From the NCBI RefSeq assembly GCF_014646055.1, contig NZ_BMMS01000005.1:124001-188000 (forward strand): 64,000 bases of DNA, read 5' to 3'. Source of the DNA: Wenjunlia tyrosinilytica (GTDB taxonomy: Bacteria; Actinomycetota; Actinomycetes; Streptomycetales; Streptomycetaceae). Shown here one piece after another: positions 6,362 to 31,420 of this stretch. A program made the translations under genes and the position numbers. Within the stretch, counting starts at the first letter, position 1; each line of letters begins with the position of its first letter. Below the pieces are notes generated by a model. It ran no database searches. It saw nothing but the letters and a program-made list of their open reading frames with translations, and was not told the origin of the DNA.

Positions 6362-6385
6362 GCGGGGCGGCGCCGGGTAATCCCC

Positions 6386-6415: not shown

Positions 6416-6421
6416 GCGTCC

Positions 6422-7162: not shown

Positions 7163-7185
7163 GGGGACGGGGAGCCGCGGGTGGC

Positions 7186-8462: not shown

Positions 8463-8488
8463 GGCGGTCTCCTCCGGGATCGAGCTGC

Positions 8489-8504: not shown

Positions 8505-8549
8505 ACAGCCGAGGTTGCCACTCGGTTAGATGGATGTCAACATAGAGGA

Positions 8550-9963: not shown

Positions 9964-10104
9964 GCCCCCAGCCTAGAGCCGTCCACTCCGGAGCCGCCGG
10001 CGCCGTTCCTCCCGAGAGGTCGGCGCCCATGGAGTCGGCGCGCGCGACGCACATGGAAGGGCACACAAGGGCACCCGCGGAAGGACACACGCGGAGGACA
10101 CCCG

Positions 10105-10170
10105 TGGACGACACACATGGACGACACACATGGACGACGCACGTGGACCACACTCACGGACGACACACAT
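10105..10170. repeat. 13-bp tandem repeat array TGGACGACACACA, about five units
   Basis: Two exact units (10105-10117 and 10118-10130) are followed by three diverged ones ending at 10170; related ACACAC/GGACAC words extend back to about 10050. The array fills part of the 424-bp gap (9964-10387) before the first CHAT gene. Frames across it are only repetitive peptides (Cys-Val-Val-His in one), so it is not coding. The remainder of the gap, 10171-10387, should hold the promoter of the CHAT gene; I could not pick convincing -35/-10 boxes. Confidence 0.8.
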
Positions 10171-10387
10171 CGAAACAGCCATGCACCTCGGGCATAGCGG
10201 AACGTTTCCGCAGCCGCCCGGGTTCGATGAAGCCACCTGATTGCACAGGAACAGGCCTGAAAAGGGCGCGTTCCGCGCCATACTGGTCGCCCCCACATAC
10301 GACCGGCGTCCGGGTTCCGCTCACCCGTGCACGGGCGAGGCTGCCCCGACGGCGGACGGCAGGAGAGCACAGCGGTACGGGAGCGTG

Positions 10388-12310
10388 ATGGCGCAGCGGT
10401 ACATGTACATCAGGCGCAGGGACTGTGAGAAGGACACCGGCAACCCACCGAGGTCCTGGCAATGGATTCTCTCGGATGTCCCCGGTGGCCACGAAGAGGA
10501 CGACTACGTGGAACTGCGCGCCGACGACCGGGCCTTCCACGATCTGTGGGAACTGGACCAGACGAAATGGCGCGACCTGGCAGCAAGCGGACCCGACGAG
10601 CTCGAGCGGTATCTGCGCCCGATCAGCAAGTGGCTGGCCTGCCGGGGCCTGCCGCACATAGCCGAGAGGCTCAGGCGGCAGGCCGTCCTGCAGCTGTCGG
10701 GGCCGGAGGACATGTGGAGGATGACCCAACTGCCCTGGATGCTGGCGGACCTGGGCGAGGGCCCCTTGGCCCTGCGCGGGATCACCTGCGTCCAGCGGCC
10801 GTTGCGGCCCCCGGAGCCGCGCCGAGTGAGGTCCGCTTCCTCCAAGGCCCTGCGCATCCTGGCCGTGTTCGCCCAGCCGGTCACGGCCGAGCCGCTGGAC
10901 CTGCGCGCGGAGCGCATCATGATGGCGCGTCTGCCGGACCTCGGGGCCAGGCACGGCCGGTCGGTCGAGGTCCACACCCTCCAGTACGGAGTCACCCGCA
11001 GGGCGCTCAGGCAGGCCCTGAACCAGGGGGACGGCTGGGACGTGGTGCACTTCTCCGCCCATGGTGAGCCCGGGGCCCTCCACCTGGAGGACCCGGACGG
11101 CGGAGTCGACCCGATCGGCGCGCAGGATCTGACGGAACTGCTCGCGGATACCTACGACACCCTCAAACTCGTCACGCTCTCCTCGTGCTGGTCGGCGGCC
11201 GACTCCTCCGACTCCGCCGGGTCGCGGTCCGCCGTGGCGTCCGCCGCGGCCCCGGACGCGGGCTCCTTGGCCGCCGTGATCGCCCAGGAGCTGGGCTGCG
11301 ACACCGTGGGCATGCGGTTTCCGATGGGCGACGCGTTCACCCGCACGTTCAACCTCGCGCTGTACCACTCGATGATCTCGGACGAGCAGGACGTGGGGAG
11401 GGCGGTGGGCTCCGCACTCACCGCCGTGATGGAGGACCCCGGGTTGCCCGAGCACCGGTACCCGCTCACCGTGGCAGGTGTCCACACCGTGATGTCCGCC
11501 TCGAGCGAGCCGGTCCGCCTGACGCCTCCCCCTTACCGGTGGATCGCACAGGACTCGGGTGAGATCGACCTGTTCGCCACCGCGCCCCCGGAGAGCGCCC
11601 ACTTCGTGGGCCGCTGCGGTGAAATGGCCAAGGCCGCCCATGTGCTGGGCGAGGTCTCGCTTGGCCGCACCGGCGTGGTGCTTCACGGAGAGCCCGGCGT
11701 CGGCACCACCGCCTGCGCCAACGAACTCGCCCGCACCCGGCGCCGGTTCTTCCGGAACATTCTGTGGTTCGAGGTGCAGGACGACTCGCACTCGGTCCTG
11801 AGCCTGGCCGAAGCCATCAACGGGCTCGAACTGCGCGTGGAACTGCCGACGGCGCCGACCACCGCACCCGACGTCTGGGCGCGTGCCTGCGCGAGATTGA
11901 GGGAGGTGTGGAGCAGGAACTACGGACTGCTCGTACTCGACCGCCTCGACCGCCAGCTTCTGGAGCCGGGCCTGTGGCGCCACCCGTTCTGGGAGGCTCT
12001 GCTGTCCTCGCTGACCGACCACCAGGGCGACAGCCGGGTGCTGATCACGAGCCGGACCGACTTCGGCCCAGAGCCGTTGAGGAGGCTGCTGCCCATCCAT
12101 GTCGAGCGCCTGACGGACAAGGAGTCCCTTCTCCTGGCCCGGCAGCTGCCGAATCTCACTCCGCTGCTGGACGACGCACAGGCCGACGAAGCGGACCACC
12201 GGCTGGCGGACGACGTACTGCGCCGGGCTGCGGGCCTGCCGGCGCTGCTCATGGAGGCCGAGGAAAGGGCAGCGGATCGCGAGGAACTGGCCCAGTGGCC
12301 CCGGGGGTGA
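10388..12310 (+). CDS. CHAT-domain (caspase-like) protease fused to STAND-like NTPase domain
   Basis: In this 640-residue protein, residues 1-150 form a domain with a WQWIL strand that recurs in the next gene. Residues about 155-385 are a CHAT protease with dyad His225 in VVHFSAHGEPG and Cys267 in LVTLSSCWSA. Residues about 410-640 resemble a STAND/NB-ARC ATPase, with GEPGVGTT at 434-441, LLVLDRLDRQ (Walker B) and VLITSRTDFG (sensor). The Walker A lysine is replaced by Thr440, so nucleotide binding may be weak or lost. CHAT proteases typically cleave a partner once a sensor is triggered. GTG/ATG triplets are tandem at 10385-10390; ATG 10388 follows GGGAG. It leads four + strand genes of similar architecture. 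Confidence 0.8.
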   Translation: MAQRYMYIRRRDCEKDTGNPPRSWQWILSDVPGGHEEDDYVELRADDRAFHDLWELDQTKWRDLAASGPDELERYLRPISKWLACRGLPHIAERLRRQAVLQLSGPEDMWRMTQLPWMLADLGEGPLALRGITCVQRPLRPPEPRRVRSASSKALRILAVFAQPVTAEPLDLRAERIMMARLPDLGARHGRSVEVHTLQYGVTRRALRQALNQGDGWDVVHFSAHGEPGALHLEDPDGGVDPIGAQDLTELLADTYDTLKLVTLSSCWSAADSSDSAGSRSAVASAAAPDAGSLAAVIAQELGCDTVGMRFPMGDAFTRTFNLALYHSMISDEQDVGRAVGSALTAVMEDPGLPEHRYPLTVAGVHTVMSASSEPVRLTPPPYRWIAQDSGEIDLFATAPPESAHFVGRCGEMAKAAHVLGEVSLGRTGVVLHGEPGVGTTACANELARTRRRFFRNILWFEVQDDSHSVLSLAEAINGLELRVELPTAPTTAPDVWARACARLREVWSRNYGLLVLDRLDRQLLEPGLWRHPFWEALLSSLTDHQGDSRVLITSRTDFGPEPLRRLLPIHVERLTDKESLLLARQLPNLTPLLDDAQADEADHRLADDVLRRAAGLPALLMEAEERAADREELAQWPRG

Positions 12311-12360
12311 GGTTCCTTCGCGAATCTCGCCCTGTGACCATTTGGATTCTGTCGGTCACC

Positions 12361-12389
12361 TGCACACCACCTCCACTTTTCCCTAGACT
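12361..12389 (+). promoter_or_regulatory. Candidate promoter TGCACA-N17-TAGACT
   Basis: TGCACA at 12361-12366 and TAGACT at 12384-12389 are 17 bp apart in an unusually AT-rich pocket 80 bp before the GTG of the second CHAT-like gene. A GTGACC/GGTCAC inverted repeat (12334-12359 region) lies just upstream. The 158-bp gap suggests that the second gene has its own promoter. Confidence 0.35.
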
Positions 12390-12468
12390 TCCCTTGCTCG
12401 GATTTTGCGCCCGCGCCGCCGTCAGTGCGGCGTGCGGCCCGCATACGCGAACCACCCATGGGGGGCAA

Positions 12469-15400
12469 GTGGTCGCGCACGATCATGCGGTGCTCAGCAC
12501 CAAGGACTACCGGGACCAGGCCCACTGGAAATGGACGCTTCGCGTTCCGGGCGGCCCCGAAATCGAACACGATGTGGACCTGTCGGCGGACTGCGACCTT
12601 GTCTCCTCACTCGCAGCTCCCTATTCCCGTCTCGCCGCGGAGGGCACGGCACGGGGAACCCCCTCGTGGTCCGCTGCCGAGCGACAGCTGGGGCGGGAGA
12701 TCGGCGAGCGGGTGCTGGGTGAGGCGATCTGCGAGCGGCTGCTGCAATGGGCGAGCAACCGCCCCAAGGACCGGGTTTCGCCCGTTCTGCTGGAACTGGC
12801 TCCGGACACGCGGGAGTTAGCCGGCTTACCGTTGTCCCTGGCCACGACCGGCCCCTCGCCGTCCGCTCCCGGCCGGTCCGAGCAGATGCTCGCGGATCGG
12901 CGGATCCGGTTCATCCACTGCCCTCCCCCGGTGGCCGGACCCTCGCAGGACCTGTCCGACGGTTCGGCCGCTGACGGGCAGGCCCTGCCCGTCTGCCTGG
13001 TGGGGGTGTTCTCCTCCGGCTCGCACGCCAGGGCGGACGCCGCGCAGCACGAGGAGTACATCCTTCGCCGGCGGCTCCTCGGGGTGGCCGTAGGCGACAG
13101 GATGAGGCTCACCCTGCGCAATCTCGTCCATGAGGTCGGCGAACCGGACTTCAGACGATCCCTCTCCCCCGCGGGTGCGCACTCCCCCACCGACCCCAGC
13201 GCCCTTGTGCTGCACATCGCGGGGCGGACCGCAGCGGGGCCGGGACCGCTCACCGACACCATCGGCGGCAAGCATCTGCTGGCCGCGGACAAGGTCGCCC
13301 AAGCGCTGGGACGCGGCCGCGACCGCCTCGGACTCGTCGTGCTGTCCTCTCCGCCCCCGGGAACCCCCGGCATGCGGGAGCGGCTGGCGCGGCTGGGCAT
13401 CGAACCGGGCGGCCGCGACGTCGACGCGGACACCCCGGAGCCCGCCGCCGTGGATCTGCCCTGGCAGCTGGCCGAGACGCTGGAGTGCCCCGTCCTGTCC
13501 TTCCGCTACCCGATCCCTGAGGGGGTCATCGCGGAGATCTGCGGCGGCCTCTACACAACTCTCCTGACGGGCCAGGACTGCCTTCCCGACGCGCTGGAGC
13601 AAGTGCTCGACGGCCTGAAGCTGTCCGGTCTCGACCGCTGCTCACCGACCCTGTACCACCCCAAGGCCCTCGGCCTGCGCCTGCGGTGCGCGCGGGGGGA
13701 CCACGGCGTCAGCGGCAGACTCGACTTCGTCAGCCATCCGGACGTCCTGCGTAAGGCGGGCGCGGTGCTCGACGCCGGTTCCCCCCACCGCGGCGTGCTG
13801 CTCCACGGAATCGAGAGCATCGGCAAACGCGCGTGTGTGCATGCCCTGCGCGATCGGTACGAGCACCTCTTCCATCTCTGTGTTCCCTTCGACGCCGCCC
13901 GCACGGCGATGGGCGTGCAATCGGCCCTCTTCGCGTTCTACGCGGGACTCAGCGAGAAATTCGGCCTCCTCCCGGAGTGGACGGCCACCAAGAAGCGCCT
14001 CGACTCCAGTCGTTCACTCCAGGATTTCGACCGCGAGCTCGACGTGTTCAACCGGATGCTCAACGTCCGCTGCGCCAACCGACGCGCACTCATCGCCCTG
14101 CTCAACGCGGACTGGCTGACGGACGGGTACAGAGCGGCGGGGCAGTGGCGCTATCCGCCGTGGGGGCGGCTCATCAGAGCCCTGGTCGACCACGAGGGGC
14201 TGTCCCGTCTGGTCATCACGAGCGCGCGCGCCATCGAATTCGCCGGGCGGCGGCCAGGTGAAACCCCTCGCGGCGACCGGATAAAGAGCGTCGCGGTGCA
14301 CCCGTTGACCGCCGGCCAGTCCCTCACTCTGGCCGGGACCGAGAGCATGCGGAATCTGAGCGGTTTCGTGCTGCCGGGAGCGGCCGGGCATGTGCCGGGA
14401 TGGCCGGACGAGGAGCGCAGGTCGCTGGTCAGACGGCTGATCGAGAGCGCCGACGGGCACCCAGGTCTGCTGCGGCTGGCGGAGAAGGAGGCGGGCTCCG
14501 CCGAGAGCCTCGACGCCTTCCTGAAGAGCGTCGGGCGCAACGGCGAGGATTCGCGCAAGCTGACGGAGTGGACGAAGGCGTTCACGGAGAATGCCCTGGG
14601 CGGACAGGTCGAGGCCGACGCGGCAAGACTCCTGCTCTGGCTCCTGTGCGCCCTGGAGGACAACGAGCGGTTCATTCCCGGCCCGAGCCGCTCCTCCGGC
14701 CGCGCCCCGGCGGCGGGCCCCGCACGGGGGTCGGGAACGGTGCTGGCACGGCTCTGGGCGGGGATCTGCACCGAACCGGTACCCCGGCTGCGACCACTCC
14801 TTTCGAACGGCGGATGGACGGTCCCCCCGGATCCACCCGGCGGCGAGGCGTCCGACGACTTCGCGCGCTGGCCCGAACTGGCCGTCCTCACCGTCGGCAC
14901 CCCGCCCCTGGACTGGCTCCTGAACACGGCTCTGGTCAGATGCGCCGAGGACGCGCACGGCGGGACGCGGCTGACGATCCAGCGAACGGTCGCCGAGGCG
15001 GCTCTCGAGACGGCGCCCGAGGAGTACGTGAGGGAACTTCGCTCGCGAGCGGCGGCCGCGTTGACCTGGGCCCTTCAGGACGCCCTCAGAAGCGAGTCCT
15101 ACGACGGACGCCAGACCGTCCTTCGGCACGCGCGGGCGCTGGTCCCCTACCTGGTCCACGGGAGTCGGTCGTCCGCACTCGTCGACGTCGCCGAGGTCAT
15201 CCTCGAACGGGACCCGCGGATCCTCACCAACGAGACGGTCAGGCTCGCACTTCGGGACGCCTTTCCCGAGCAGATGCGGGAGATCGAGGAGGCCTCGGAC
15301 GAAAGGCCCCCGCTGAGCCCGGGCCGCGGACCGACCGGACGGTGGCACAGGAACAGCGAGCGGATCACCTGGTTCGAGCGTCTGCGTGACCGACTGGAGA

Positions 15401-16479
15401 TCCCACCGCGGAGCGAGGGCCAGGGATCGGCTCAGGGCGCCGACCTGATGGCCGCACACCGCATCGGTGAACTCCGCGCCCAGGGAGACCTCGCGGGTGC
15501 CCTGGCCGAGGCGGACCGATGTCTGGGGCAGGCCAGGGAGGGCGGCGCCGACACGTGGCGTCTGGCGTCCCTGCGCGCCCTGCGCGCCCGGGTAGGAATC
15601 GACGCCGGGGACTACAAGGCGGCCGCCGAGGAGGCCGAGGACGTGCTCTTGGACTCCCACAGCTGGGACGGCTCGGGACGCGGTGCCCGCACGACCGACT
15701 TCCTTCGCGCCGTACTTCGCGACGCGACCGCGCTGTGCGCGCGGTACTGCGACGACGCCGTCACGCGGCAGGACTGCGTCCACGACTGCCTCGACGTCTC
15801 CCGGCGCGCCGCCAAGAAACTGACCAAGCGCCTCGAATACCAGGACGCTTTGGAGTCGGAGCAGCTCAGGGCCTACGTCCACGGCTGCGCCGTGCTGATG
15901 GATCCGCCGTGCGACCAGTCGCGTCAGCATGTCCTGCGCCACATACAGGAGTGCTACGACCTCGCCGAGGGGGACGGCGACTGGGCATTGATGGGCCAGG
16001 CCCTGTCTGCCAAGGCCGAGGTGCTGCGCGGCCGGAATCCCGGCAGCGCCCTGACGAGCGAGTTGGGGGCACTGCGCTTCCACTACCTCGGCGGCACTCC
16101 CATGGACATCGCCCGATGCCACGAGAACATCGGGCGGGGGTTGGGCCCGGACGTGGCGGGGGACCAGGTGCGGCCGAGCGGGGCTCTCGTCCACCACCTC
16201 GCGGCAGCGCTGATCAGGAGGCTCACCGGCGACGGCCGTCTTCCGGACAGTCTGAGCAGCCTCGACGAACTGCTGCTGGCCTCGGCCCCGAGCCTTCCCC
16301 GCGCCGTCCGGGACCTGGAGGCGGCCATCGGGAAGTCCGCCACCGGTCCTGGGGAACTGGGACTGGAGGAGATGGTCACGTTCCTGGCGAAGGAGGAGTC
16401 GGCGGACGCCGCTCTCGCCGCACTGGTCGACGAACTGCTCCGGCGTCAGGAGGGGACCGATGATCCACCGGTGACATGA
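12469..16479 (+). CDS. Large pseudo-CHAT / P-loop / TPR-like protein
   Basis: This 1336-residue protein starts with the WKWTL strand also seen in the preceding gene. Residues about 110-400 follow the CHAT layout, but the His loop reads LVLHIAGRT (H249 kept, catalytic His replaced by Arg253) and the Cys loop LGLVVLSSPPP (no Cys). It therefore looks catalytically dead. A P-loop HGIESIGKR at 446-454 keeps Lys453 but ends in Arg, and RALIALLNADWL and RLVITSARAIEF are the Walker B/sensor-like strands. The last 400 residues are helical, with TPR-like pairs. The GTG at 12469 follows a run of G. It probably works as a sensor or scaffold for the active CHAT protease. No close family name is recognised. 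Confidence 0.7.
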   Translation: MVAHDHAVLSTKDYRDQAHWKWTLRVPGGPEIEHDVDLSADCDLVSSLAAPYSRLAAEGTARGTPSWSAAERQLGREIGERVLGEAICERLLQWASNRPKDRVSPVLLELAPDTRELAGLPLSLATTGPSPSAPGRSEQMLADRRIRFIHCPPPVAGPSQDLSDGSAADGQALPVCLVGVFSSGSHARADAAQHEEYILRRRLLGVAVGDRMRLTLRNLVHEVGEPDFRRSLSPAGAHSPTDPSALVLHIAGRTAAGPGPLTDTIGGKHLLAADKVAQALGRGRDRLGLVVLSSPPPGTPGMRERLARLGIEPGGRDVDADTPEPAAVDLPWQLAETLECPVLSFRYPIPEGVIAEICGGLYTTLLTGQDCLPDALEQVLDGLKLSGLDRCSPTLYHPKALGLRLRCARGDHGVSGRLDFVSHPDVLRKAGAVLDAGSPHRGVLLHGIESIGKRACVHALRDRYEHLFHLCVPFDAARTAMGVQSALFAFYAGLSEKFGLLPEWTATKKRLDSSRSLQDFDRELDVFNRMLNVRCANRRALIALLNADWLTDGYRAAGQWRYPPWGRLIRALVDHEGLSRLVITSARAIEFAGRRPGETPRGDRIKSVAVHPLTAGQSLTLAGTESMRNLSGFVLPGAAGHVPGWPDEERRSLVRRLIESADGHPGLLRLAEKEAGSAESLDAFLKSVGRNGEDSRKLTEWTKAFTENALGGQVEADAARLLLWLLCALEDNERFIPGPSRSSGRAPAAGPARGSGTVLARLWAGICTEPVPRLRPLLSNGGWTVPPDPPGGEASDDFARWPELAVLTVGTPPLDWLLNTALVRCAEDAHGGTRLTIQRTVAEAALETAPEEYVRELRSRAAAALTWALQDALRSESYDGRQTVLRHARALVPYLVHGSRSSALVDVAEVILERDPRILTNETVRLALRDAFPEQMREIEEASDERPPLSPGRGPTGRWHRNSERITWFERLRDRLEIPPRSEGQGSAQGADLMAAHRIGELRAQGDLAGALAEADRCLGQAREGGADTWRLASLRALRARVGIDAGDYKAAAEEAEDVLLDSHSWDGSGRGARTTDFLRAVLRDATALCARYCDDAVTRQDCVHDCLDVSRRAAKKLTKRLEYQDALESEQLRAYVHGCAVLMDPPCDQSRQHVLRHIQECYDLAEGDGDWALMGQALSAKAEVLRGRNPGSALTSELGALRFHYLGGTPMDIARCHENIGRGLGPDVAGDQVRPSGALVHHLAAALIRRLTGDGRLPDSLSSLDELLLASAPSLPRAVRDLEAAIGKSATGPGELGLEEMVTFLAKEESADAALAALVDELLRRQEGTDDPPVT

Positions 16480-16552
16480 CCGAAGGCACGCGGTCGCCAC
16501 GACCCCGTGCTCAGCGACAAGCAGCAAGTAACAGAGAACGACGCGAGACCCC

Positions 16553-18928
16553 GTGGCCCGGCTGTCGAAGCCCGACCACCGCCCGAGCCGAGCGCACAGC
16601 GCCGCCTCGGCCGCGGGTTCTCGTCGGGGGAAGGTGGCATCAGCTGTGGGAGTGTTCAGCAAGGGCGACGGCCACGGGGACCACGGTCCCACGTCGGAGT
16701 CCGTCATCGTGCGGATCGGTGAGGGCCTGCGAGGGGAACGCAGCCATCCGATCACCGTGACCCGGCTGCGTCCGGGACGCGAGCCCGAGGAATACAGGAG
16801 TGGCAGAGCCTTCATCCCCCCGGACACCCCGGTCCCTTGGCACAGGGCCGAGGGCGCCACGGTCGCCGAGGCGGCGGCGTACGGAGACGAGCTCTTCCAG
16901 CGGATGGCGGCCTGCGGCCTCCCCGAGTGGTATGTGCCTTCCGACGCCGAGGGCCCGCTCATGGTCTATCTGCACCTGGAGGCACGGTCCCTGCGCGGAC
17001 TCGCCTGGGAGGCGCTGCGGGTGCCCGCCGTGGAGCCGGGGCAGCCGCCCAACGAGCTGTTCCGGTCCCCGCTCTACCGGGCGGTGCGCGGCAGAGTGCC
17101 GCAACGGGGCTTCAGCGGAACCCGCCGCCTGCTCACTCCCCACCTTCCTCCGCGTGTGCTCTTACTGGGAGTGGACGCCCGGACACGCGACGACGAGTAC
17201 ACGGACGCCGCCGTCCACCTCGCGCTCTCGAAACCGTGCACGGGCTGGGAGGTGGAGATGCACCCGGACCCCGGAGGCTTCGAGGCCCTCTGCAAACTGG
17301 TGAAGTCCTGCAAGCCGACCGTGCTGCACCTGCTCAACGGGGCGGTGCGCCATCTGCTGGACGGGGGGGCCGACCGCCGCCTCGCGGTCAGGGAGTTCGA
17401 CTCCAACGGGGTGGAGCTGGTCGTCCTCGGCTCCTCCCCGGCCAGCCCCCACAGCGAGGCCCACTGCCGCCCCCAGATCTCCGCCGATCTCGCCGACGTG
17501 GTCGTGGGGCCGGGAGTACCCGCGGTCGTCACCCTGTGCGTCTACGGCGGCCTCGCGGCGCTCGCCGACCAGAGCCGGCAGCTCTACGAAGGCCTCAGCG
17601 CGGGCCTGGCCGTGGACGAGGCGGTCCGGGCGATCAACGTGTCCGTGGCGGACGACGCGGACAGGGGCGAGCCGCCCGCGGACGGCGAGGCAAGGGGTGA
17701 CACGACGGGCGTCGTGACGGGCGGCGCAGCGCCGGACGGAACCCGATCGGAACGGCCCTGGAGCTGGCGCAGCGTCACGGTGGCGGCGGAGCCCATCCGT
17801 TTCCCCATCAGCACCCCGGCCCCCGGTGAGAACGCGGCCCCGGCGGCAGTCGGCCGAGCGCCCGAGCAGGCAGCGGAGGAGGACGGCGCGGGAGACAGCG
17901 GTGAGGATGGCTGCGGGGAAGCCGTCGAGGACCGCGGTCTCGACGGTGCCCGGCGTGTCTCGGTCGACCGGGTGCAGCAACGGCGCCTGATCCAGGACTG
18001 GTTCCAGGCCTCCGAAGGCGCCAGTGGCGCCTACTTCCTTCGGGGGACGGGCAGGCCGGCCTCTCGTGTCCGTTCCGGGGGCCTGTCCGCCCCGGCCCAT
18101 CAGGACGGGACCACGGATCTGCTGCTGTTCGCCCTGCGCAGTTGGGAGGCGCTCGGCAACACCGGACTCCATGTGGACTTCGGCAATCCTCCGGGCCCGG
18201 GATTCTCCGCCCGTCCCTTCGGGGTGCTCGAGGCCCTGCGGACCCTGGCGCACGCTCCCGTGCGGCGCCCGACAGCGCCGTCGGCGAGCGGCCGACCGGG
18301 CGGTGCCGTCCATCTGCGGGCCAAGTTCGACCAGTTGCTCGGCTCCGCGGAATCGGGCGAGTTGCTCGGTTCGACCGAGGCGCGGGACGGCACCTCTCCG
18401 GAGCGCAACAGCATAGTGGTCGGGAAAGCGACCGAGTTGTGCCTGGACATCCTCCTGGACCACTCCCAGTCCTCGGAGCGGCTGCTGCTCGCTCTCGATC
18501 ACAGCGACAAGGCTCTCAAGGACGGTGTGATGGACGACTGGCTCGTTCGGCACGTCCTCCAGCCGCTGCTGGACAAAACGTCCTCGGTGGCCGTCGTGGT
18601 GGCCGTCGGGGGGGCCTCGGGGGACCGGAACTACGGCTTCACCCGAATCAGGGATTCAGTGGACGTGGAGCCCTGGCCGCTGGACTACGCTGCTCCGCTG
18701 CTGAGGGAGGTGGGCGCAAGGATGGGCGAATCGTTCAAGTCGTGTCCTGCCTGGAAACAGCAAGTTGTCCAGCTCGTCGACGACGCCAGGCTGCACCCTA
18801 GGGTCGAGGACAGCACAGGGCTTCCCGCCTTCGGTCCGAGCCTGCTGGTCGACGCCCAGCGGTTGCTGGAGGCCCAACTCGGTCGTAGCAGGAACGGCGG
18901 TGGATCCCCGTGGAAGCAGCAGGTCTGA
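16553..18928 (+). CDS. Pseudo-CHAT protein with degenerate NTPase region
   Basis: This protein of about 791 residues has a CHAT-type first half: WEALRVP strand, PRVLLLGVDARTRDDEY opening strand, VLHLLNGAV at 257-265 where the catalytic His is replaced, and VELVVLGSSPAS at 287-298 where the Cys is missing. The second half aligns in layout with the NTPase regions of its neighbours, but the expected P-loop reads YFLRGTGRPAS and lacks the GK[ST] end. LLLALDHSDKAL is a Walker-B-like strand. It overlaps the next gene by 19 bp, indicating translational coupling. The start is uncertain: GTG codons at 16553, 16634 and 16652 all lack a good ribosome-binding site. Confidence 0.65.
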   Translation: MARLSKPDHRPSRAHSAASAAGSRRGKVASAVGVFSKGDGHGDHGPTSESVIVRIGEGLRGERSHPITVTRLRPGREPEEYRSGRAFIPPDTPVPWHRAEGATVAEAAAYGDELFQRMAACGLPEWYVPSDAEGPLMVYLHLEARSLRGLAWEALRVPAVEPGQPPNELFRSPLYRAVRGRVPQRGFSGTRRLLTPHLPPRVLLLGVDARTRDDEYTDAAVHLALSKPCTGWEVEMHPDPGGFEALCKLVKSCKPTVLHLLNGAVRHLLDGGADRRLAVREFDSNGVELVVLGSSPASPHSEAHCRPQISADLADVVVGPGVPAVVTLCVYGGLAALADQSRQLYEGLSAGLAVDEAVRAINVSVADDADRGEPPADGEARGDTTGVVTGGAAPDGTRSERPWSWRSVTVAAEPIRFPISTPAPGENAAPAAVGRAPEQAAEEDGAGDSGEDGCGEAVEDRGLDGARRVSVDRVQQRRLIQDWFQASEGASGAYFLRGTGRPASRVRSGGLSAPAHQDGTTDLLLFALRSWEALGNTGLHVDFGNPPGPGFSARPFGVLEALRTLAHAPVRRPTAPSASGRPGGAVHLRAKFDQLLGSAESGELLGSTEARDGTSPERNSIVVGKATELCLDILLDHSQSSERLLLALDHSDKALKDGVMDDWLVRHVLQPLLDKTSSVAVVVAVGGASGDRNYGFTRIRDSVDVEPWPLDYAAPLLREVGARMGESFKSCPAWKQQVVQLVDDARLHPRVEDSTGLPAFGPSLLVDAQRLLEAQLGRSRNGGGSPWKQQV

Positions 18929-21900
18929 CCGGCCCGACCGATCCGCCGGACGATGGTGCCCACGGCACCGGCGTACGGTCCGCGTCCTTCGAGACGCACG
19001 CGTTCGAGTACGTCGGGACGATGCCGGACGGACTTCGGGAGCTCGTTCAGCGGTGCGCCGTGCCCGGCTGGTTCACCGAGGACATCTACAACGCCGAGCT
19101 CGCCGGGACGGCTGCCGAGCAGTGGCCGCTCGCGACACTGGAGAGCTGGGGATGGGTCTCGCGCAACGTGGGTCCGGGAGCGGCACCGCCGGGCAGCTAC
19201 CGGCTCACGGACACCCTGGTCCAGCGCGGCGGCTGGGCGGCGTGGTGGCTGCGTGAGGAGAAGCACCGCTCACCGGGCTCCCGGCCCGTTCCGGCCGATC
19301 TGAAGTTGTTCGCGCGGGGCCTGGCCGAGTGCTACCGGGCGCTGGACGGGGGTTCGGGCGTGACCCAGGCGCTGTCGCTGCTCGCCCTCTCCGACAGCGC
19401 GGACGCGGCTCTTGTCCTCTTCGACTCCCGTTACCGTTCGGCCGAGGCCCTCCGGGACCTGGACGAGTGCGCGGCTCTGGTCGGGGCGCTGGCGCCGGCC
19501 GCGCTCCACGCCCTCGTGCCGCAGCCCCTGCTGGACACGGCCGCCGCCTATCAGGAACGCCTCCATCTGCTCCGGGGACGCGGTCAGGACTGGAGCCAGC
19601 TGCGCCACTACCTTCCCCGGCCCAAGCTGCACGACGTGCTGGACCTGCTCCTGGCGCCGGACAGCGACGTCAGGGCCGTCCACCTCCACGCCGTGGGGGG
19701 CAGCGGGAAGACCATGCTGCTGAACTGGTTCCGCAACGACCACTGTGCCCGGCGCACACCCGCCGTGCGCTCGGCTCTGCAGGATCTCGCCATCCTCGCC
19801 CCCCACGCGGTGATCCGGCGTCCGTGGGCCCTTCTGCCGGGCATGGCCGAGGAACTGGCGGAGCAGTTCGGCTCGGGCGGCCCTTTGCGCTCGTTCGCCG
19901 ACGAACACCGCGACCTGATCGCGGAGATCGCCAGGACCGACCCGCAGGCACGTACGATGGCCCGCACGCCCGGACGTGACGGTGAAGCGGTCGTCTCCGG
20001 ATTCCTCAGGGCCCTGGCCGAGACCGTGCGGGAGCGGGAGGCCCCCGTTCTGCTGGCGGTCGACACCATGGAGGACCTGCTGGATGTCGGCATGAGCGAC
20101 CTGTCGGACTTCTTCCAGCTCTTCGGGCGGCTGTTGCGGGAGAACCGCCACCTCAGACTCGCCCTGCTGTGCCGCACGGACCTGCGCCTGGTCGTCAACG
20201 AGGTCGACGCCTACTTTCCCGGAAGGGGCCTGCGCACCGAACAGGTGCCTCCGTTCTCCCACGACGAGGCGTTCGCCTACCTGGTCCGGCACCGGAATGT
20301 CCAGGAAGAGACCGCCCGGACGATCCTCAAGTCCGGTGACCACGACGTCGAGGAAGCCGCCGCCCACCGCATGCCCATCCACCTGGCCCTTGTGGCCGAC
20401 GAGGCCCGTGAGCTGGACCCGCGGCAGATCACACTGAAGGGCGACCCCTGGCTCGTCGTGGCGATAAAGCGGGAGCTCGACAAAGTGGGCGGCTCCGCAG
20501 CCTGCAATCTGCTGTTCTGCTGCGCCGTCACCCGCAAGCCGTCCGAGCGGTTCGTCCTCGACGTGCTGGCTCCGCTGGCCAATCGGCACGACGGCGAACT
20601 GAGAACGATCATGGCCGGATCGCAGAAGTCCGTCCTGAAATCGGTCAACCTCGTCCAGGCCATGCAGGGGCGGCCCGTCGAAGAGTGGGGTGAGCGGGGC
20701 AGATCCAGCGCTGCCCTGTGGGAGTCCCTGTACCTCTACGCCCAGCGCACCGCGTGGATGAAGTGGAACAGCAACGCCCATCAGATCGAGATCCATCCCC
20801 ATGTCCGGCGGGCCCTGGTCGACCGATTGCGCACAGCCGACGACCAGAGCGCCAGCGACCTGTGGAAGAACCTCCACCACGAGGCGTACACCTGGCATCG
20901 ACGGCAGGCGGAGAAGGCGACGGAGGACCACCGAATCGGCTCGGCCCTCGAAGCCCTGGGACGGGCCTACTACCACCAGCTGCACATGATCGGATCCACC
21001 CCGCCGGTGAAGGGCGACACCGCCCGGACCGTCAGCGACAAGTGGTCCGCCGACGTGCACAACGCCTGGCACCAGGGCGGAGCCGCCCTCGCTTCGATCC
21101 TCGTCGACAACCTCCTGAGCACCGACTTCCTCGACAGCAGGAGCAGAAACCTGGACACGCGGGTCATGCCCGCCCGGCTCTGGTACCGAGTGCTCCTCGA
21201 GAAGGCCTCCGTGCTCCTCCACGAGTGCCTGTACCGACGTGACGAGAGCTGGGGGGAGCTGCGGCGGTTCCTGAGTATGAGCCAGTACCACGCGAAGCAG
21301 TACGAGCACTCCGTCGTGGTCGACACGGCGCGGACCGATCTGTTGCGGGCGGCGGAGATGATCGACCGGGCCCGGCATCTTCTCGGGGCGGCCTCTCCCG
21401 GAGCCGCGGCGGCGACCGAGCCGGGCAGGCCTGACCTCGCCATGACGGCGGCCCGGCTGCTGACCAACGCGTACCGGGTGCTCGAGGAGCAGACGAGCGG
21501 TCGGGCCCGGCGAGAGCCCACGCCGTGGAGCCGTGTCGCCCTGCTCCTGATGGGCCGCTGCCGGCTCATCGAGGGCCTCGGCAACGCCGATGAGCACTTC
21601 CGGCGCGCCTTCGACGAAGCCTCCCTCCCCGCCGCGCCCTCACCGGCCGCCAGGGCCGAGATCGCGCTGTTCGCCCTGTGGGAATGGGCTCGGGCCGGTC
21701 GCGCCGACAAGGTGCTCCAGTGGATGGACCGGTACGCCGAGGCCGGTACGCGGGCCGGCTCCTCCTCGGAGGACGGTGTGGAACGCGCGACGGCCGAGGA
21801 GGACGAGGACGAGGCAGCGCTCCTTGCCGCCCGTGCCGCGCTGGACCTGCGGGAGCCGGCGCGGGCCCTCGCCCTTCTGGATCGCGCCTCCTGGGCCAAG

Positions 21901-23688
21901 GCGTTGTGGCTGAAGGCGCTGGCCAACCGGCTGACCGGTGCGCACGAGACCGCTCTGCTCCAGCTCCGCGACATCGTCTCCCGCCCTGGATGGGAGAGCG
22001 GAGGGGGCCTGGACTACCGGGTGGAGATCGAACTCGCCTTCGTGGCGGTCTTCTCCGACCTGCGCGACGACGCCCTGGTGGACAAGCACACCCAAGCGGC
22101 CATGGCCGCGGCGTACAGCGACGAGGAACTGCTCGCCGTCCTCACCGCGCGGGTCCGCCATGAGCTGGTGAACACCGGAGATCTCTCGCGCGCGAGGGAA
22201 TGGGTGGAGCTGGCACGGCCCCTCCACGCGGCGGGCGGCCGGTGGCGGACCGCCGGGGTCTGCGCCGAGGCGGCGGTCCTCCACCGGCTGGGCGGCCCGG
22301 GCCGGTCCGCGCGTCTGCTGGAGGAACTGGCGGCCGCGCACGCACTCGCCACCCAGCCCGACGGAGCGGTCTTCGCGCCGTCGGCCGAGGAACGGGCCAT
22401 GGTGGCCCTGCACTTGGTCTACGCGGCGGAACCCGGGCAACAGCTCCCCCGCGCGCATGCCGCCGCCCGGCAGCTCGCCAGGGTGCCCGGCGCGGGCGCG
22501 CGGGCGGCGCTGCTGGCCCGGGAGAGCGCCTGCTATCCGGGCACTGTGCTGGGGGGCCGCATCTGCGCGGTACTCCTGCACGCGGCGACCTCCGGGGAGC
22601 AGACGCGGACGGGAAGCGAGGAGGGCACACCGACCGATCGGGCCGTGCGCCATCTGGCACTCGCCCTCGCGGCGGGTTCTCTCAGCGGTGACGCACGCGA
22701 GGGCGCCGCATGGCTCGCCCAGGCCGAACCAGTGCTCCAGAAGCTGACACCGGGTGCGGAGAACCCCCTGCTGCGCGGCGCCCGGCTGCGGTTGAACCGC
22801 TTGCCGGACGCGGCGGGCCACCTCACCGCGTCCACGGTCGGCCGGGAACGGATCCGCAATCGCCAGTTGGCCCTGCTCAGCCTGGGCCACTACAGCGGCC
22901 CGCTCGACGGGGCGGAGCACCCGCAGTGGACATCGTGCTGGCAGACGTACGCGGACGGCAGGTCCGCTGAGCACACCCACGCCGCTCTGCGGGAGGAACT
23001 GCCGGCCGTCGGTGAGGGAACCCGCGTGCACCGCGTCGGCGCATGGCTGCCCGCACTGCCCGGCCGAGGCACGGTTCCCCGGCTGCCCTCCATGGCACCC
23101 GAGGCGGCGGGAGCCGGGCCTTCGCTGGTCGACCTGCGAGTGACCGAGGACGCGTTGTCCGCCGCGGGAGCCCTCGTCGGCCTGGAACCCGGCCGCGTCG
23201 ATGTGCTCCACCTGCGGGGAACCATGGAACGGCACGGCCGGCGGACCGCTCTGAGAGTGCCCGAAGGAGTCCGGGCCATCACCGCGCAGGACGTCGTCGC
23301 CGCTTTGGACGCACTGCCCCAGCCCGCGCGTCCCCTGGTGATCGTGGAGGTCACGGACGCCCGCTGGACCAGGGAGGTCGACGACCAGCAGCGGATGCGG
23401 GACCGCTTCGGCTATGACATCTTCCGGCTCGCCTCGGCGACGGTGCTGGCCACCGGACTGGTGGACACCAGGGAAAGGAGTGGGTGGGAACGGCACCTGG
23501 AGGAAGCGCTGCGCCCGTGCAGCACCGCGGCGGACATCCTTCGCCTGATCTCCCCCGAGGCCACGCAGATCGAACGGCAGGTGGCCGCGCGGCACGAGGA
23601 GACCGACCTCAGGAGGGCGAAGGACCGTCTCTACAGTCCGGTCCCCGAGGGGGAGATGCTGGGCGTGGGCGCGATGGCCGGGGAATGA
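18910..23688 (+). CDS. Giant STAND NTPase with TPR-like repeats and C-terminal pseudo-CHAT domain
   Basis: This 1592-residue protein is the only one of the four with a textbook P-loop, GGSGKT at 263-268, plus Walker B VLLAVDTMED (Asp385) and a sensor-like LRLALLCRTDLRL. A winged-helix-like segment follows, then about 700 residues of Ala/Leu/Arg-rich helix pairs typical of TPR sensors. The last 170 residues resemble a CHAT core with VDVLHLRGT (His1434) and PLVIVEVTDARW, but neither catalytic residue is in place. The start GTG overlaps the upstream gene. As STAND proteins go, it should be a nucleotide-gated switch that senses through its repeats. It ends 15 bp from the convergent operon. Confidence 0.72.
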   Translation: MEAAGLTGPTDPPDDGAHGTGVRSASFETHAFEYVGTMPDGLRELVQRCAVPGWFTEDIYNAELAGTAAEQWPLATLESWGWVSRNVGPGAAPPGSYRLTDTLVQRGGWAAWWLREEKHRSPGSRPVPADLKLFARGLAECYRALDGGSGVTQALSLLALSDSADAALVLFDSRYRSAEALRDLDECAALVGALAPAALHALVPQPLLDTAAAYQERLHLLRGRGQDWSQLRHYLPRPKLHDVLDLLLAPDSDVRAVHLHAVGGSGKTMLLNWFRNDHCARRTPAVRSALQDLAILAPHAVIRRPWALLPGMAEELAEQFGSGGPLRSFADEHRDLIAEIARTDPQARTMARTPGRDGEAVVSGFLRALAETVREREAPVLLAVDTMEDLLDVGMSDLSDFFQLFGRLLRENRHLRLALLCRTDLRLVVNEVDAYFPGRGLRTEQVPPFSHDEAFAYLVRHRNVQEETARTILKSGDHDVEEAAAHRMPIHLALVADEARELDPRQITLKGDPWLVVAIKRELDKVGGSAACNLLFCCAVTRKPSERFVLDVLAPLANRHDGELRTIMAGSQKSVLKSVNLVQAMQGRPVEEWGERGRSSAALWESLYLYAQRTAWMKWNSNAHQIEIHPHVRRALVDRLRTADDQSASDLWKNLHHEAYTWHRRQAEKATEDHRIGSALEALGRAYYHQLHMIGSTPPVKGDTARTVSDKWSADVHNAWHQGGAALASILVDNLLSTDFLDSRSRNLDTRVMPARLWYRVLLEKASVLLHECLYRRDESWGELRRFLSMSQYHAKQYEHSVVVDTARTDLLRAAEMIDRARHLLGAASPGAAAATEPGRPDLAMTAARLLTNAYRVLEEQTSGRARREPTPWSRVALLLMGRCRLIEGLGNADEHFRRAFDEASLPAAPSPAARAEIALFALWEWARAGRADKVLQWMDRYAEAGTRAGSSSEDGVERATAEEDEDEAALLAARAALDLREPARALALLDRASWAKALWLKALANRLTGAHETALLQLRDIVSRPGWESGGGLDYRVEIELAFVAVFSDLRDDALVDKHTQAAMAAAYSDEELLAVLTARVRHELVNTGDLSRAREWVELARPLHAAGGRWRTAGVCAEAAVLHRLGGPGRSARLLEELAAAHALATQPDGAVFAPSAEERAMVALHLVYAAEPGQQLPRAHAAARQLARVPGAGARAALLARESACYPGTVLGGRICAVLLHAATSGEQTRTGSEEGTPTDRAVRHLALALAAGSLSGDAREGAAWLAQAEPVLQKLTPGAENPLLRGARLRLNRLPDAAGHLTASTVGRERIRNRQLALLSLGHYSGPLDGAEHPQWTSCWQTYADGRSAEHTHAALREELPAVGEGTRVHRVGAWLPALPGRGTVPRLPSMAPEAAGAGPSLVDLRVTEDALSAAGALVGLEPGRVDVLHLRGTMERHGRRTALRVPEGVRAITAQDVVAALDALPQPARPLVIVEVTDARWTREVDDQQRMRDRFGYDIFRLASATVLATGLVDTRERSGWERHLEEALRPCSTAADILRLISPEATQIERQVAARHEETDLRRAKDRLYSPVPEGEMLGVGAMAGE

Positions 23689-23703: not shown

Positions 23704-27661
<3,958 letters not shown>

Positions 27662-27665
<4 letters not shown>

Positions 27666-28885
27666 CCGCGTCCACCTTCTGTCCAGGGATCCTCGGCGTT
27701 GCGGCTGTCCGTCCCGCGGGCCCACCAGCGGCGCCTGGGGCTGTCGCCACCGCTGATCCGGGAACTCGCGCCTCCCGGGGTCGTCCAGCCGTCGGCCGCC
27801 TCGTAGCCGCCCCACGTCGCGCCCGCTCCCTCGCGCTCCCCCGGATCGCGCGGATAGCCGTTGGGACCGGTGCCGCGGTAGCCGTCGTCCGCAGGCCCCG
27901 CGCGTCCGTCCCTGGCCGCAGCGCGTCCCCACGCGTCGCCGCGGTCCTCCCCGCCCCGCCGACCCGACGCGGTGTCGGAACCGGGAAACGGCGGCCAGGC
28001 CCCCTGGCCCTTGCTGCGCAGCAGCCGGTCGAACATCGCCCGTCCCTCGGCGAGTTCGTCCGTGGGACGCAGGAGCTCGTCGCAGGGGTCGGGTGCCGAG
28101 ATGCGGGCGAGGAGGGTACGGGCCTCGGGGCGCTGGTGCGCCCGGGGCTCGAAGACCCGCTCCAGCAGGTCCTCGAGGCCGCCGCCGAGGTCGTTCGTGT
28201 ACCTGGGCGGGCCGGAGTCGCTGCCCGGCTGCGATGTGACGACGTGGTGGATGAGCTGTCCCACACTCCAGATGTCGTCGCGCGGATCGACCACGCCGAC
28301 GGCTTCCCGCTGCTCGGGCGAGGCCCACGGGGCGCCTCCGACGCGGCGGCGGGGCCTTCCTACGACTTCGGCGTGGCCGAACGACGTCAGCTGGACCCGG
28401 TCACCGTTCCACAGCACCGTGCTCGGGTTGATCGCCCGGTGGACCAGTCCCGCCCAGCCGAGCAGCCGGACCGACCGGATCAGGCTGTGCTCGAACATCC
28501 GCTGCTCGGCGGTCAGCAGTTTTCCGACGACCCTCGACACCGGACGGTCGTTCTCCCCTCCCTGCTGGAGCAGCACGAACGGCTCGTCGGCCGCCAGGTC
28601 GTAGGCGGCCAGTCGGGCGAACTCGGGCGGATAGGAGTCCCGCCCGAAGGCACGCGCCAAGGCCAGTCCCACCCGCACCTCGTCCTCGAGCGTCTCCATG
28701 AGCTCGCGCTGGGACGCCCGCGAGGCGGGCAGCCGGCGCTGGAGGTACGGACGCCTGTCGGCGGACAGGCGCACGCCCCGCACCAGGAGGGGCGACCCGG
28801 GTACCGGTGGCGCGTCGGGGCCGTATTCGACCCGGTGGCTGGCCAACGCACCCGACGAGTCGAAGAACGTCAGCTCGTCAGCCAT
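27662..28885 (-). CDS. Catalytically dead protein-kinase-like protein (pseudokinase)
   Basis: This 407-residue protein has a Ser/Thr-kinase fold (residues about 40-280): the catalytic loop reads H149-R-A151-I-N153-P where active kinases have HRDxKP, the DFG triplet is S168-F-G, and the activation/APE region is GGAPWASPEQ followed by DDIWSVGQLIHHVV. Loss of the catalytic Asp, the loop Lys and the DFG Asp means no phosphotransfer is expected. The C-terminal 130 residues are Gly/Arg/Asp-rich and disordered. It sits between the two-TM protein and the GTPase, overlapping the latter by 4 bp, so it is probably a scaffold or nucleotide-free sensor in that complex. Confidence 0.8.
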
Positions 28886-28930: not shown

Positions 28931-31420
28931 TCATCCCTCCGGGGTCCGCGTACCACGGCGGCCGCCCTGGTCCGATCCCGGGCGGCGCTCGTGCGAGCCG
29001 GGGTCACGGCCGTTCCCGGCGGGGCCGTCCGGCTCCCCGACCCGGACGGCCCCGAGGGCCAGCGGTACCAGCCTGAGAAGGCCCGCGCAGCGTCCCGAGG
29101 CGGTCCACAGCGTACGGGTCCGCTCGCCCGGTCCCGGGCCGTCCGCCCCGGGACTGTCGGCGGCCAGGAACGACTTCTGCATCGCGTGCGGCACGAATCC
29201 GAACGTCCGGATCGCGGAGGGCTGGCGGTCCAGCATGCGCAGTTGGTCGACGGAGCACAGCTGGAGGGGTCCCTGGCTGTCCCTCAGCAGGTCCACGACG
29301 TGCCGGATGTCCGCCCCCACGAGCGTGGCCGGATCGGGCCGCCGCTCCGGTTCACGGGCGAACGGGGGCGGCGGCGCCGTTCCCGCATGCACCAGGTGCG
29401 CCTGGTAGGCGTCGACCAGCGCCTGGGTGCGCTCGGCCACCGGCAGGCGGGTGGCGGCGGCCGGGTCGGCGAAGATCACCGACCAGAAGGGACTCAGGAC
29501 CTCGACGGCCAGGTCCTCCAAGTCGTCGAGCAGGGTCTCCCGCAGCGGGGTTCCCGCCTGTCCCACGAAGTGGACCACCGGCGAGAGCAGTTCGAGGTGG
29601 GAGTCGTCGACCCCGGTCACCGCCTCGCTGCTGAGCTCCAGCCGCTGGGAGAACGCCTGGAGAGTGTCCGCCACCTCGGTGAGCGCGGTCGCCAGGGCCC
29701 TGGCCCGGTCGGAGGCGGCAACCCGTGCGTCCGCCAGCAGCCAGTGCCCCACGACGCAGTCGTCCAGTAGTTCGCGCAGTCGCTCCGCGGCGGTCGAGGC
29801 GGCGTCGAGGGCCAGCACCGACCTCCAGGCGGCCACCCGGCGGCGCCACCCCACGGCCACCGTGCCGACCACCGTCGCGACGGCCACTGCCAGAGCCAGC
29901 GGGACCAGCAGGGTGGGCGCCCTGCCCAGGTCCGCCGCGACGGCGCCGAGGGCGGACCCGGCGCCGACACTGCCGAACAGCAGGGACAGCCGGGTCGCCG
30001 GGTGGTCGGCGAGCGGGTGGCCGGCGAGCCCGCCGGGCCGCTCCCGTCCCGGCCTTTCCCCCGCCGGGCCCATAAGGGTGCGCAGGCCGACCGCCAGAAC
30101 GAACAGCAGCGCCACCACGCCCGTGATGACGCCGGGAACCGCCCACTGCGCCAGGGCGGACGCCGCGGCCGCGGCCGCGGCCACCGCTGAAGCGTTCGCG
30201 GTCACACGGGGAAACGGCGCCGGGCCGAGCAGCGACTCGACCAGCCTGGGCGGGCAGACGCTGTCGAGTCGCCTGCGGCTCGACAGACTTCCGGTCGGCT
30301 GGGTCCGGTCGGCGAACCCGCGCAGCCCGTCCGCCAGCGCGCGCAGGGACCGGCGACGGCTCGTGGCGGTGAGGACCTGTTCGCGCAGGGCCGCACCGAT
30401 CTCTTCGGATCCCGTCCCCGGCAGGGCCGGGATGCGGATGCCGACGTCTCCCAGGGTGTCCCGCTGCGCCGCGTCCAGGCCCACCCGCCCGTCGACCGTG
30501 TCCAGGACATGGGCGAGCAGTTCGCGGTGGGCACCGAGCGCCAGCGCGGCCTGTCTGCGGTGGTCCACGATGTCCGCGACCAGGGCCGACGCGTCCCCGC
30601 GCAGCACCGTCGAGAACGCGGCCAGCTCCTCCAGCCGGTCGGCCGCCTCGTGAACGAGGTCGACGCACTTCCAGTACCCGGCCCGCAGTTGGCCGTCCTC
30701 GGCGACGCACGACGCCGCGGTGACATGCTCCGGAAGGTTGTCCGGGTCGAGCACGACCGGACCGGCGACGACATCGGCCGCGTGCTCGTCACGCTGCCCG
30801 GACAGCCACTTCATCACATCGATCTGCGTACGGATCAGCTGGTCGTCGGGAACCTCCTGGACCAGCAGGCGCAGTGCGGGCGAGGCCACCGCGGACGGCA
30901 TGGACGACACCTCGCGCACGGTCTCGTCGTACACCTCGGGGATCCGCAGGGTCTCGATCAGCGGTTCGATCCCGCGGGTGTCGTCGGGCCGCAGGCCGTT
31001 GTCCGTCAGGCCGGCGGGACCGGTCTGTCCGGGGTCCCAGCGCACGCCGCGCACATCGCCCACCCACAGCGTCACGGCGTTGGGCGAATGGAGGCTGACC
31101 GGGCGCAGGAACACATGGGGGTCGTGGTACCGCTCACCGGTCTCGGTGCGGTGGACGAGGCCGAGCGCGGATCCCACGACGAGGCACAGCAGCGAGGACA
31201 CACTGCGGTGGGAGTAGACGGCCCGGTGGATCGCGTGGTGACGCAGCAGTCCCTCGGGCGTGTCGAGCACGAGCACACGCGAGACGTCGGCGGAGCTGAC
31301 CCCCGCCTCGCGCATGGCGGTGCGGCCGAGTTCCTCGAAGGGGAGGGCGGCGAATCCCTCGGCGCCGTTGCGCAGGTCGATCAGTACGACGATGCGCGGG
31401 TGCTCCTTGGGGGCGGTCAC
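28931..31420 (-). CDS. Two-transmembrane conflict-operon protein of unknown family
   Basis: The 829-residue protein has a soluble N-terminal alpha/beta domain opening with RIVVLIDLRNGAEGF, a helical middle, and two hydrophobic hairpin regions (about 405-445 and 480-520, the second with LLVPLALAVAVATVVGTVAV). A cytoplasmic helical C-terminal half then ends in a charged disordered tail. I do not recognise the domains. The GTG at 31420 is chosen because GGAAGGA lies 6 bases upstream and the codon overlaps the tubulin-like stop by 4 bp; an ATG at 31435 is also in frame. Coupled translation implies stoichiometric expression with the tubulin-like protein. Confidence 0.68.
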   Translation of the reverse strand: MTAPKEHPRIVVLIDLRNGAEGFAALPFEELGRTAMREAGVSSADVSRVLVLDTPEGLLRHHAIHRAVYSHRSVSSLLCLVVGSALGLVHRTETGERYHDPHVFLRPVSLHSPNAVTLWVGDVRGVRWDPGQTGPAGLTDNGLRPDDTRGIEPLIETLRIPEVYDETVREVSSMPSAVASPALRLLVQEVPDDQLIRTQIDVMKWLSGQRDEHAADVVAGPVVLDPDNLPEHVTAASCVAEDGQLRAGYWKCVDLVHEAADRLEELAAFSTVLRGDASALVADIVDHRRQAALALGAHRELLAHVLDTVDGRVGLDAAQRDTLGDVGIRIPALPGTGSEEIGAALREQVLTATSRRRSLRALADGLRGFADRTQPTGSLSSRRRLDSVCPPRLVESLLGPAPFPRVTANASAVAAAAAAASALAQWAVPGVITGVVALLFVLAVGLRTLMGPAGERPGRERPGGLAGHPLADHPATRLSLLFGSVGAGSALGAVAADLGRAPTLLVPLALAVAVATVVGTVAVGWRRRVAAWRSVLALDAASTAAERLRELLDDCVVGHWLLADARVAASDRARALATALTEVADTLQAFSQRLELSSEAVTGVDDSHLELLSPVVHFVGQAGTPLRETLLDDLEDLAVEVLSPFWSVIFADPAAATRLPVAERTQALVDAYQAHLVHAGTAPPPPFAREPERRPDPATLVGADIRHVVDLLRDSQGPLQLCSVDQLRMLDRQPSAIRTFGFVPHAMQKSFLAADSPGADGPGPGERTRTLWTASGRCAGLLRLVPLALGAVRVGEPDGPAGNGRDPGSHERRPGSDQGGRRGTRTPEG

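Follow-up and report, generated by a model that had tools for sequence, protein, structure and literature searches.

Genes and distribution of the cassette

The window, i.e. the whole stretch of 64,000 nucleotides analysed here, carries four consecutive + strand genes, g1 to g4, delimited by a codon-usage gene call that only estimates where g2 and g3 start. The first gene, g1 (10388..12310, 640 aa), encodes a CHAT protease with an intact dyad (H225, C267) and a STAND-type NTPase which has lost its Walker A Lys (GEPGVGTT). g2 (about 12469..16479, 1336 aa) combines a pseudo-CHAT domain (His replaced by Arg253, Cys by Pro), an NTPase-like domain and a long C-terminal part, which appears TPR-like from comparison with the G001 protein described below. 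In g3 (about 16652..18928, 758 aa), a pseudo-CHAT domain with a lost dyad accompanies an NTPase-like domain devoid of Walker A Lys, in which LALDH is kept. Finally, g4 (18910..23688, 1592 aa) contains a STAND-type NTPase (Lys267, Asp385), a long and presumably repeat-like region, and a C-terminal domain.

Both domains of g1 are recognized by Pfam (CHAT, E 3.9e-13; AAA_16, E 2.8e-9; both over cut-off), and g1 is the single place in the window's genome that matches the Pfam CHAT model at E <= 0.001. g2 matches AAA_16 alone, g4 matches AAA_16 (E 1.4e-4) and AAA_22, all of them under cut-off, and g3 has no Pfam match.

Including the window (G000), five such cassettes were found, the other four being carried by Streptomyces genomes: S. 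luteolifulvus HIT-DPA4 (L028), S. populi A249 (L027/G590), Streptomyces sp. DI166 (L029/G330) and G377. These four are 28-34% identical to the window, and both gene order and the live/dead pattern are constant in all five. PADLOC returned one weak match for the window g1 (TRIP13, E 0.041) and none for the window g2 to g4; in L028, it matched g1 to SAVED_CHAT (E 1.4e-5, residues 209-358) and g2 to PDC-S73 (E 0.036).

With g3 as query, colinear g1-g4 genes were recovered in G330 and G377, both from one genus. Counts from genome draws are lower bounds, with few candidates scored per genome: a g3 match (E <= 0.001) was detected in at least 5 of 293 genomes of the order, three of which are cassettes (G000, G330, G377), and in at least 12 of 295 Streptomyces genomes, three of which are cassettes (G330, G377, G590; weaker matches were inspected in part). 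In the family draw, g1 found a match in at least 11 of 200 genomes, strong in G000 and G001 only. A first contig scan, and a tblastn search of plasmids with g3, detected no relative. The cassette looks rare, and no paper describing it, or the U-CHAT pair presented below, was found by title or abstract start among the matches listed, which come mainly from open-licence literature.

Related genes occur in two other arrangements. G001, from the same genus as the window, encodes a single CHAT-STAND-TPR protein of 1411 aa, in which dyad and P-loop are both intact and the Walker A Lys lost by g1 is kept. In addition, five Streptomyces genomes carry a B system composed of B1 (a CHAT protein, dyad present in 5/5), B2 (g4-like; tblastn E down to 3e-29) and a third gene, with no g1 or g2 match within the fetched stretches. 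A gene of 422-451 aa follows B2 in 5/5 B systems (L046, L047, L127, L128, L129); the two sequences read, at L046 4240-5508 (-) and L047 1776-3104 (-), display an AHETGHHIED (HExxH) motif, and neither Pfam nor NCBIfam matched the L046 copy. In L129 (G556), at about 5433-10561, B2 seems broken near its C-terminus, with two matches in different frames.

CHAT domains and their catalytic residues

We built a CHAT profile of 31 rows, consisting of 28 Streptomyces loci (the 30 loci of the reference set minus L108 and L118, whose reading frame was not recovered), two B1 CHATs and G001. In hhalign comparisons, this profile, which is not fully independent because close relatives of g1/g2 and of g3 are among its rows, matched g1 at E 1e-18, g2 at E 3.7e-7 and g3 at E 1.1e-6, and the real score was reached by 0 of 30 column shuffles for each of the three. 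g2 is also directly similar to g1 (BLASTP E 2e-12 over the CHAT and NTPase parts; hhalign E 2e-25). Similarly, g3 matches the two B1 CHATs (hhalign E 9e-13; 0/30 shuffles as high), and an HMM made from three g3 orthologs pulls Streptomyces CHAT proteins, for example one in G580 (E 2e-9) whose gene matches Pfam CHAT at E 3e-26. The signal of g3 is clear solely in hhalign against the 31-row profile or the B1 CHATs: it was not significant in a plain hmmsearch with the CHAT profile (best E 0.026), and hhalign with thin domain alignments gave nothing for g1 versus g3, g1 versus the g4 C-terminus or g3 versus the g4 C-terminus. Judging from these comparisons, g2 and g3 carry true, catalytically dead CHAT domains.

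The g4 C-terminus scored E 0.36 against the 31-row profile, with 9/30 shuffles as high, and E 0.23 (5/20 shuffles) once four B2 relatives had been added. Against the B1 CHATs only, it reached E 0.06 (0/30 shuffles as high) and, when enlarged, E 0.08 (2/20), a control region of g4 being noise-like (21/30). It resembles the B2 C-terminus (E 2.5e-5). AlphaFold2 models were of low pLDDT for both the g3 N-terminus (42.7, 4-row alignment) and the g4 C-terminus (45.5, 3-row alignment), and Foldseek searches of PDB with these two models returned nothing at E <= 0.001. A likeness of g4 to the MALT1 paracaspase, seen in weak Foldseek rows (E 0.18-0.71), was rejected as not being evidence. That the g4 C-terminal domain is a degenerate CHAT is possible but unproven, and the window contains one live and two dead CHAT domains, plus a possible third dead one. 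A previous reading of the sequence only had proposed four linked CHAT-like genes: their linkage is borne out, as is the CHAT nature of g1 to g3 by profile match, but not that of the g4 C-terminus (E 0.36, 9/30 shuffles), and one CHAT domain too many was probably counted.

Residue states were read in joint alignments with dyad-intact relatives. The dyad that the sequence-only reading placed at His225 and Cys267 of g1 is found there, and both His and Cys are kept in 5/5 cassettes. In g2, the His is replaced by Arg in 5/5 cassettes and the Cys by Pro (window) or Arg (the other four), the dyad being retained in 0/5. In g3, the His position reads G, D, E, S, D and the Cys position S, D, A, H, E, so the dyad is lost in 5/5; the g3 gene of L028 has a Cys one residue ahead of the expected site. 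Both catalytic residues are present in 31/31 readable CHAT reference rows, which are best matches and biased to intact domains. The motifs quoted for the window are likewise all present (HIAGRT and LSSPPP in g2, HLLNGA and GSSPAS in g3, VLHLRGT in g4, with no Cys in LVIVEVT). A first His had been described as kept in each protein: this is true of g1, g2 and g3, each in 5/5 cassettes, but in g4 it concerns the window only, as Leu is found in the other three of the four readable cassettes (L027 is left out of all g4 C-terminus counts, its contig ending there). At the expected site of the g4 C-terminus, Cys is lacking in 4/4 readable cassettes. Three orthologs read LLHGEM where the window has LHLRGTM, and a His-Gly pair may be kept at this site.

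The NTPase residues also differ between subunits. The Walker A Lys is replaced by Thr or Ala in 5/5 cassettes for g1 and again in 5/5 for g3, both genes keeping the Walker B Asp in 5/5, and g4 has the Walker A Lys (window K267) and the Walker B Asp (window D385) in 5/5. g2 has the Walker A Lys in 5/5, with R, E, T, T, T as the next residue (canonical GKT in 3/5, GKR in the window), and reads L, R, S, S, L at the aligned Walker B position (Asp in 0/5), with an Asp one residue later in 4/5 and no Walker B Asp in the window. In the four cassettes with this shifted Asp, g2 may bind or use nucleotides. The idea of a clean NTPase division over all four subunits was therefore weakened, g2 being ambiguous (Lys 5/5, shifted Asp 4/5). 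Because of the residue states observed in the five cassettes, proteolysis by these domains can, as far as predicted from sites, only be carried out by g1, and the intact pair of NTPase residues surely lies in g4.

In a 49-row tree, g1, g2, g3 and B1 each form one group, and these assemble into {g1,g2,G001} (support 100/99) and {g3,B1} (95/82); the window copies of g3 and g2 are flagged as long branches and the branching order of g1, g2 and G001 is not settled. As the tree puts g2 with g1/G001 and g3 with B1, the simplest reading would be that the dyad was lost twice, in separate lineages. Ratios of dN/dS (NG86, for one cassette pair only, L028 versus L029) are 0.33 for the live CHAT of g1, 0.35 and 0.36 for the dead CHATs of g2 and g3, 0.20 for the g4 C-terminus, and 0.36-0.43 for the four NTPase domains. 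The dead CHAT domains are under purifying selection and are not decaying. Profiles, tree, constant pattern and dN/dS (0.35-0.36 versus 0.33) all agree with the earlier idea of related folds with lost catalysis as regards g2 and g3, but it does not hold for the g4 C-terminus.

Convergent gene cluster and partner gene U

Only 15 bp separate the stop end of g4 from that of a convergent gene (23704..26388, -), which has no Pfam match and lies next to the DO-GTPase gene, at the spot expected for GAP1, its relatives being found in the same position. On the same strand lie genes for a DO-GTPase2 (26391..27665, -; Pfam PF19993, 28.1 bits for a cut-off of 27), a protein-kinase-like product (27662..28885, -; Pfam Pkinase E 2.2e-6, under cut-off; ortholog in L028), a conserved protein without known domain (28931..31420, -; no Pfam match at E 0.01; L028 ortholog E 1.7e-141), a tubulin-like protein (31417..34755, -; Pfam Tubulin_2 E 5.3e-68; orthologs about 70% identical in L028 and G377 (L130)) and a vWA protein (34806..37187, -; Pfam VWA E 4.4e-9; L130 ortholog E 6e-160). 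Beside the vWA gene, a large HEAT-repeat protein is encoded at 37709-41368 (-); it has no match in the G377 stretch L130 and is perhaps an addition in the window's lineage. Another conflict-type island is present at 43584-53669, with SLATT/DUF4231, NACHT-LRR, MoxR (bpMoxR match), weak-WD40 and TIR genes, and it resembles the MoxR-vWA-beta-propeller systems presented by Kaur et al. 2020 (PMC7159879).

The DO-GTPase gene is tail-to-tail with g4 in 4/4 testable cassettes (window, G330, G377, L028), the fifth contig ending inside g4. Among these four, the tubulin gene is found in three (the G330 contig ends before it) and the vWA gene in two (window, G377). Of 200 genomes of the family, 20 contain a DO-GTPase match at E <= 1e-20, and none of the 18 readable other DO-GTPase loci (out of 19, L077 having been dropped from this judgement as a 5.8 kb contig) shows a g1-g4 match in the fetched stretches; one of them, L079, has a distant CHAT-like match close to its end (E 1e-6). 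Moderate support (86/88) was obtained for a grouping of the four cassette-linked DO-GTPases, although the tree program flags a meeting of long branches at this point. The linkage could reflect plain inheritance of a block. A tubulin theme has been described for actinobacterial DO-GTPase/GAP1-N2 systems (Kaur et al. 2020, PMC7159879), and the convergent cluster of the window shares with them DO-GTPase2, tubulin and vWA genes. It differs from the systems presented there in that its gene in the GAP1 place has no Pfam match; the GAP1-N2 section of that paper names no caspase or CHAT part, and at none of the 18 other family DO-GTPase loci that could be read was the four-gene cassette seen.

In 4/5 cassettes (the four Streptomyces ones), a gene of 260-272 aa, hereafter U, is divergent from g1. 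No U gene was detected in the genome of the window (best E 0.7), and two profiles scanned against the window itself found none either (best E 0.4). U homologs are located directly before B1 in 5/5 B systems. Searching 295 Streptomyces genomes with a U profile yielded 16 matches in 15 genomes: 8 belong to cassettes and B systems that had been identified earlier through CHAT, and 7 of the 8 found by U alone adjoin a CHAT gene (one of these with an intervening 116-aa reading frame). As CHAT matches occur in 48 of 61 genomes, with at most ten per genome, chance U-CHAT adjacency should be rare. The eighth match found by U alone is a broken copy in L163 (G588; roughly 6.8-7.7 kb on the reversed stretch), and 15 kb of sequence there contain no match to CHAT. 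At a second place in G377, separate from the cassette (L142 8670-13566), the gene immediately after U encodes a CHAT protein of 1347 aa that also matches Clp_N.

Searches of Pfam and PADLOC with 15 U members each, of NCBIfam with three and of PDB sequences gave no significant match. The size of U, its position and some sequence features had suggested a bacterial gasdermin, which no sequence search supports: gasdermin matches are lacking in PADLOC, Pfam and NCBIfam, as well as in PDB by profile or single sequence. No Cys was observed among the first 30 residues of 9 U members; the majority of bGSDMs are described as having an N-terminal Cys for palmitoylation (PMC9612521). Like the gasdermins of the bacterial gasdermin-protease operons described in that paper, U is encoded beside a caspase-like protease gene, but it has no gasdermin match and was not found in the window's genome. 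It could still be a gasdermin whose sequence has diverged beyond the reach of such searches. The U family, the conserved neighbours and the NTPase differences all lie beyond what the sequence-only reading had covered.

A candidate protease switch and its alternatives

The arrangement is genuine, conserved and unusual, and represents a variant of the CHAT/STAND conflict systems already known. We tentatively favour, as something close to an even call, the reading in which g1-g4 would form one regulated machine with divided catalytic jobs, namely a STAND switch (g4), two pseudo-CHAT proteins (g2 and g3) and one protease (g1). The homology of g1 to g3, residue states, conservation, purifying selection, gene order and linkage, on which this reading builds, are all established at the sequence level. 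g4, in which both key NTPase residues are kept in all cassettes, would be an ATP-driven sensor or switch. g2 and g3 would be pseudo-protease subunits serving as scaffold, gate or allosteric activators. g1 would be the sole protease, and dependent on the others because it has lost its own Walker A Lys and does not have the long C-terminal part seen in its single-gene relative (G001). Upon a trigger, which the neighbouring DO-GTPase/tubulin cluster may pass on, g4 would assemble with g2 and g3 and switch g1 on, and active g1 would then cleave a target, perhaps the divergently encoded U in the Streptomyces versions. The outcome would probably be defence by self-damage; the physical complex, the trigger and the target of g1-g4 are what we infer. 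A bolder version, which we regard as unlikely, is a bacterial inflammasome-like machine of four CHAT/STAND-derived subunits with obligate allosteric pseudo-proteases, in which all proteolysis would come from one subunit and the ATP switch from another, linked to DO-GTPase and tubulin and having in Streptomyces a U effector (possibly a diverged gasdermin).

Instead of activating g1, the two dead proteins may act as inhibitors (cFLIP-like or decoys), occupying the partner face or the substrate of g1 and being removed on firing. Such a role would suit g2, a direct paralog of g1 (hhalign E 2e-25) whose dyad is lost in 5/5 cassettes, and inactive caspase-like domains of bacterial conflict systems have been suggested to act as dominant negatives or in peptide binding (Kaur et al. 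2020, PMC7159879). We nevertheless consider it somewhat unlikely, given that g3 descends from another CHAT lineage and that g2 and g3 have conserved NTPase-like parts (dN/dS 0.36-0.40), needless for a simple inhibitor. Sequence cannot tell whether pseudo-CHATs activate or inhibit.

Two further explanations do away with a single machine. Under one of them, which seems rather unlikely, g1-g4 would be separate sensors sharing ancestry and an operon, each protein working alone and the dead CHATs being structural leftovers. Each protein does have its own NTPase or NTPase-like domain and its own flanking parts, and g2 may be NTP-competent in some cassettes, but order and live/dead pattern are fixed in five cassettes, the dead domains are as constrained as the live one, and a recognizable effector site exists in g1 only, leaving the others without known output. 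Under the other, the cassette would consist of two modules that still function as separate units side by side, the ancestor of g1-g2 being a CHAT-STAND-TPR protein and that of g3-g4 a pair of the B1-B2 type, as could be expected from the tree ({g1,g2,G001} and {g3,B1}), from the similarity of g4 to B2 (tblastn E down to 3e-29) and from the five Streptomyces genomes with B1-B2 and no g1/g2 match in the fetched stretches. However, a g3-g4 unit would have no protease site, whereas B1 keeps the dyad in 5/5, and all four genes occur together in all five cassettes found, which makes this explanation improbable.

A single regulated machine would have parallels among known systems. Among CHAT proteases (PF12770), g1 is a clear member with its His/Cys dyad and g2 and g3 have homologous domains, but these are without both catalytic residues in all five cassettes. 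Dead caspase-superfamily domains have been proposed as regulators in conflict systems of multicellular bacteria (Kaur et al. 2020, PMC7159879), and the corresponding domains of g2 and g3 are also catalytically dead; the inactive domains described there sit on vWA components of MoxR-vWA systems, whereas here they belong to a four-gene CHAT-STAND cassette. Similarly, the TPR-CHAT protease of Craspase, as described in PMC9729208, is held and switched by a partner, as we propose for g1, but in the present case the partners would be STAND-type NTPases and pseudo-CHATs, with no CRISPR part among Pfam matches.

A regulated complex of one protease and its dead relatives, as the sequence-only reading had suggested, is compatible with our data. 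In animal cell death, the control of an active protease by a related pseudo-protease is well established (cFLIP). The comparison that had been drawn with caspase-8/cFLIP may serve as an analogy only, as g3 comes from another CHAT lineage than g1/g2 and NTPase sites also differ between subunits.

The cassette offers a deeply conserved bacterial case: live and dead protease sites are distributed identically in the five cassettes, which come from two genera, and g1, the live protease, is missing a key residue in its NTPase. The inactive copies, preserved in evolution, suggest parts of one molecular switch and not four separate enzymes. The U family, encoded beside CHAT genes, is a candidate substrate or effector of Streptomyces CHAT proteases. 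Finally, the live/dead set makes a simple genetic test possible, distinguishing dead caspase-like subunits that activate the live one from subunits that restrain it.
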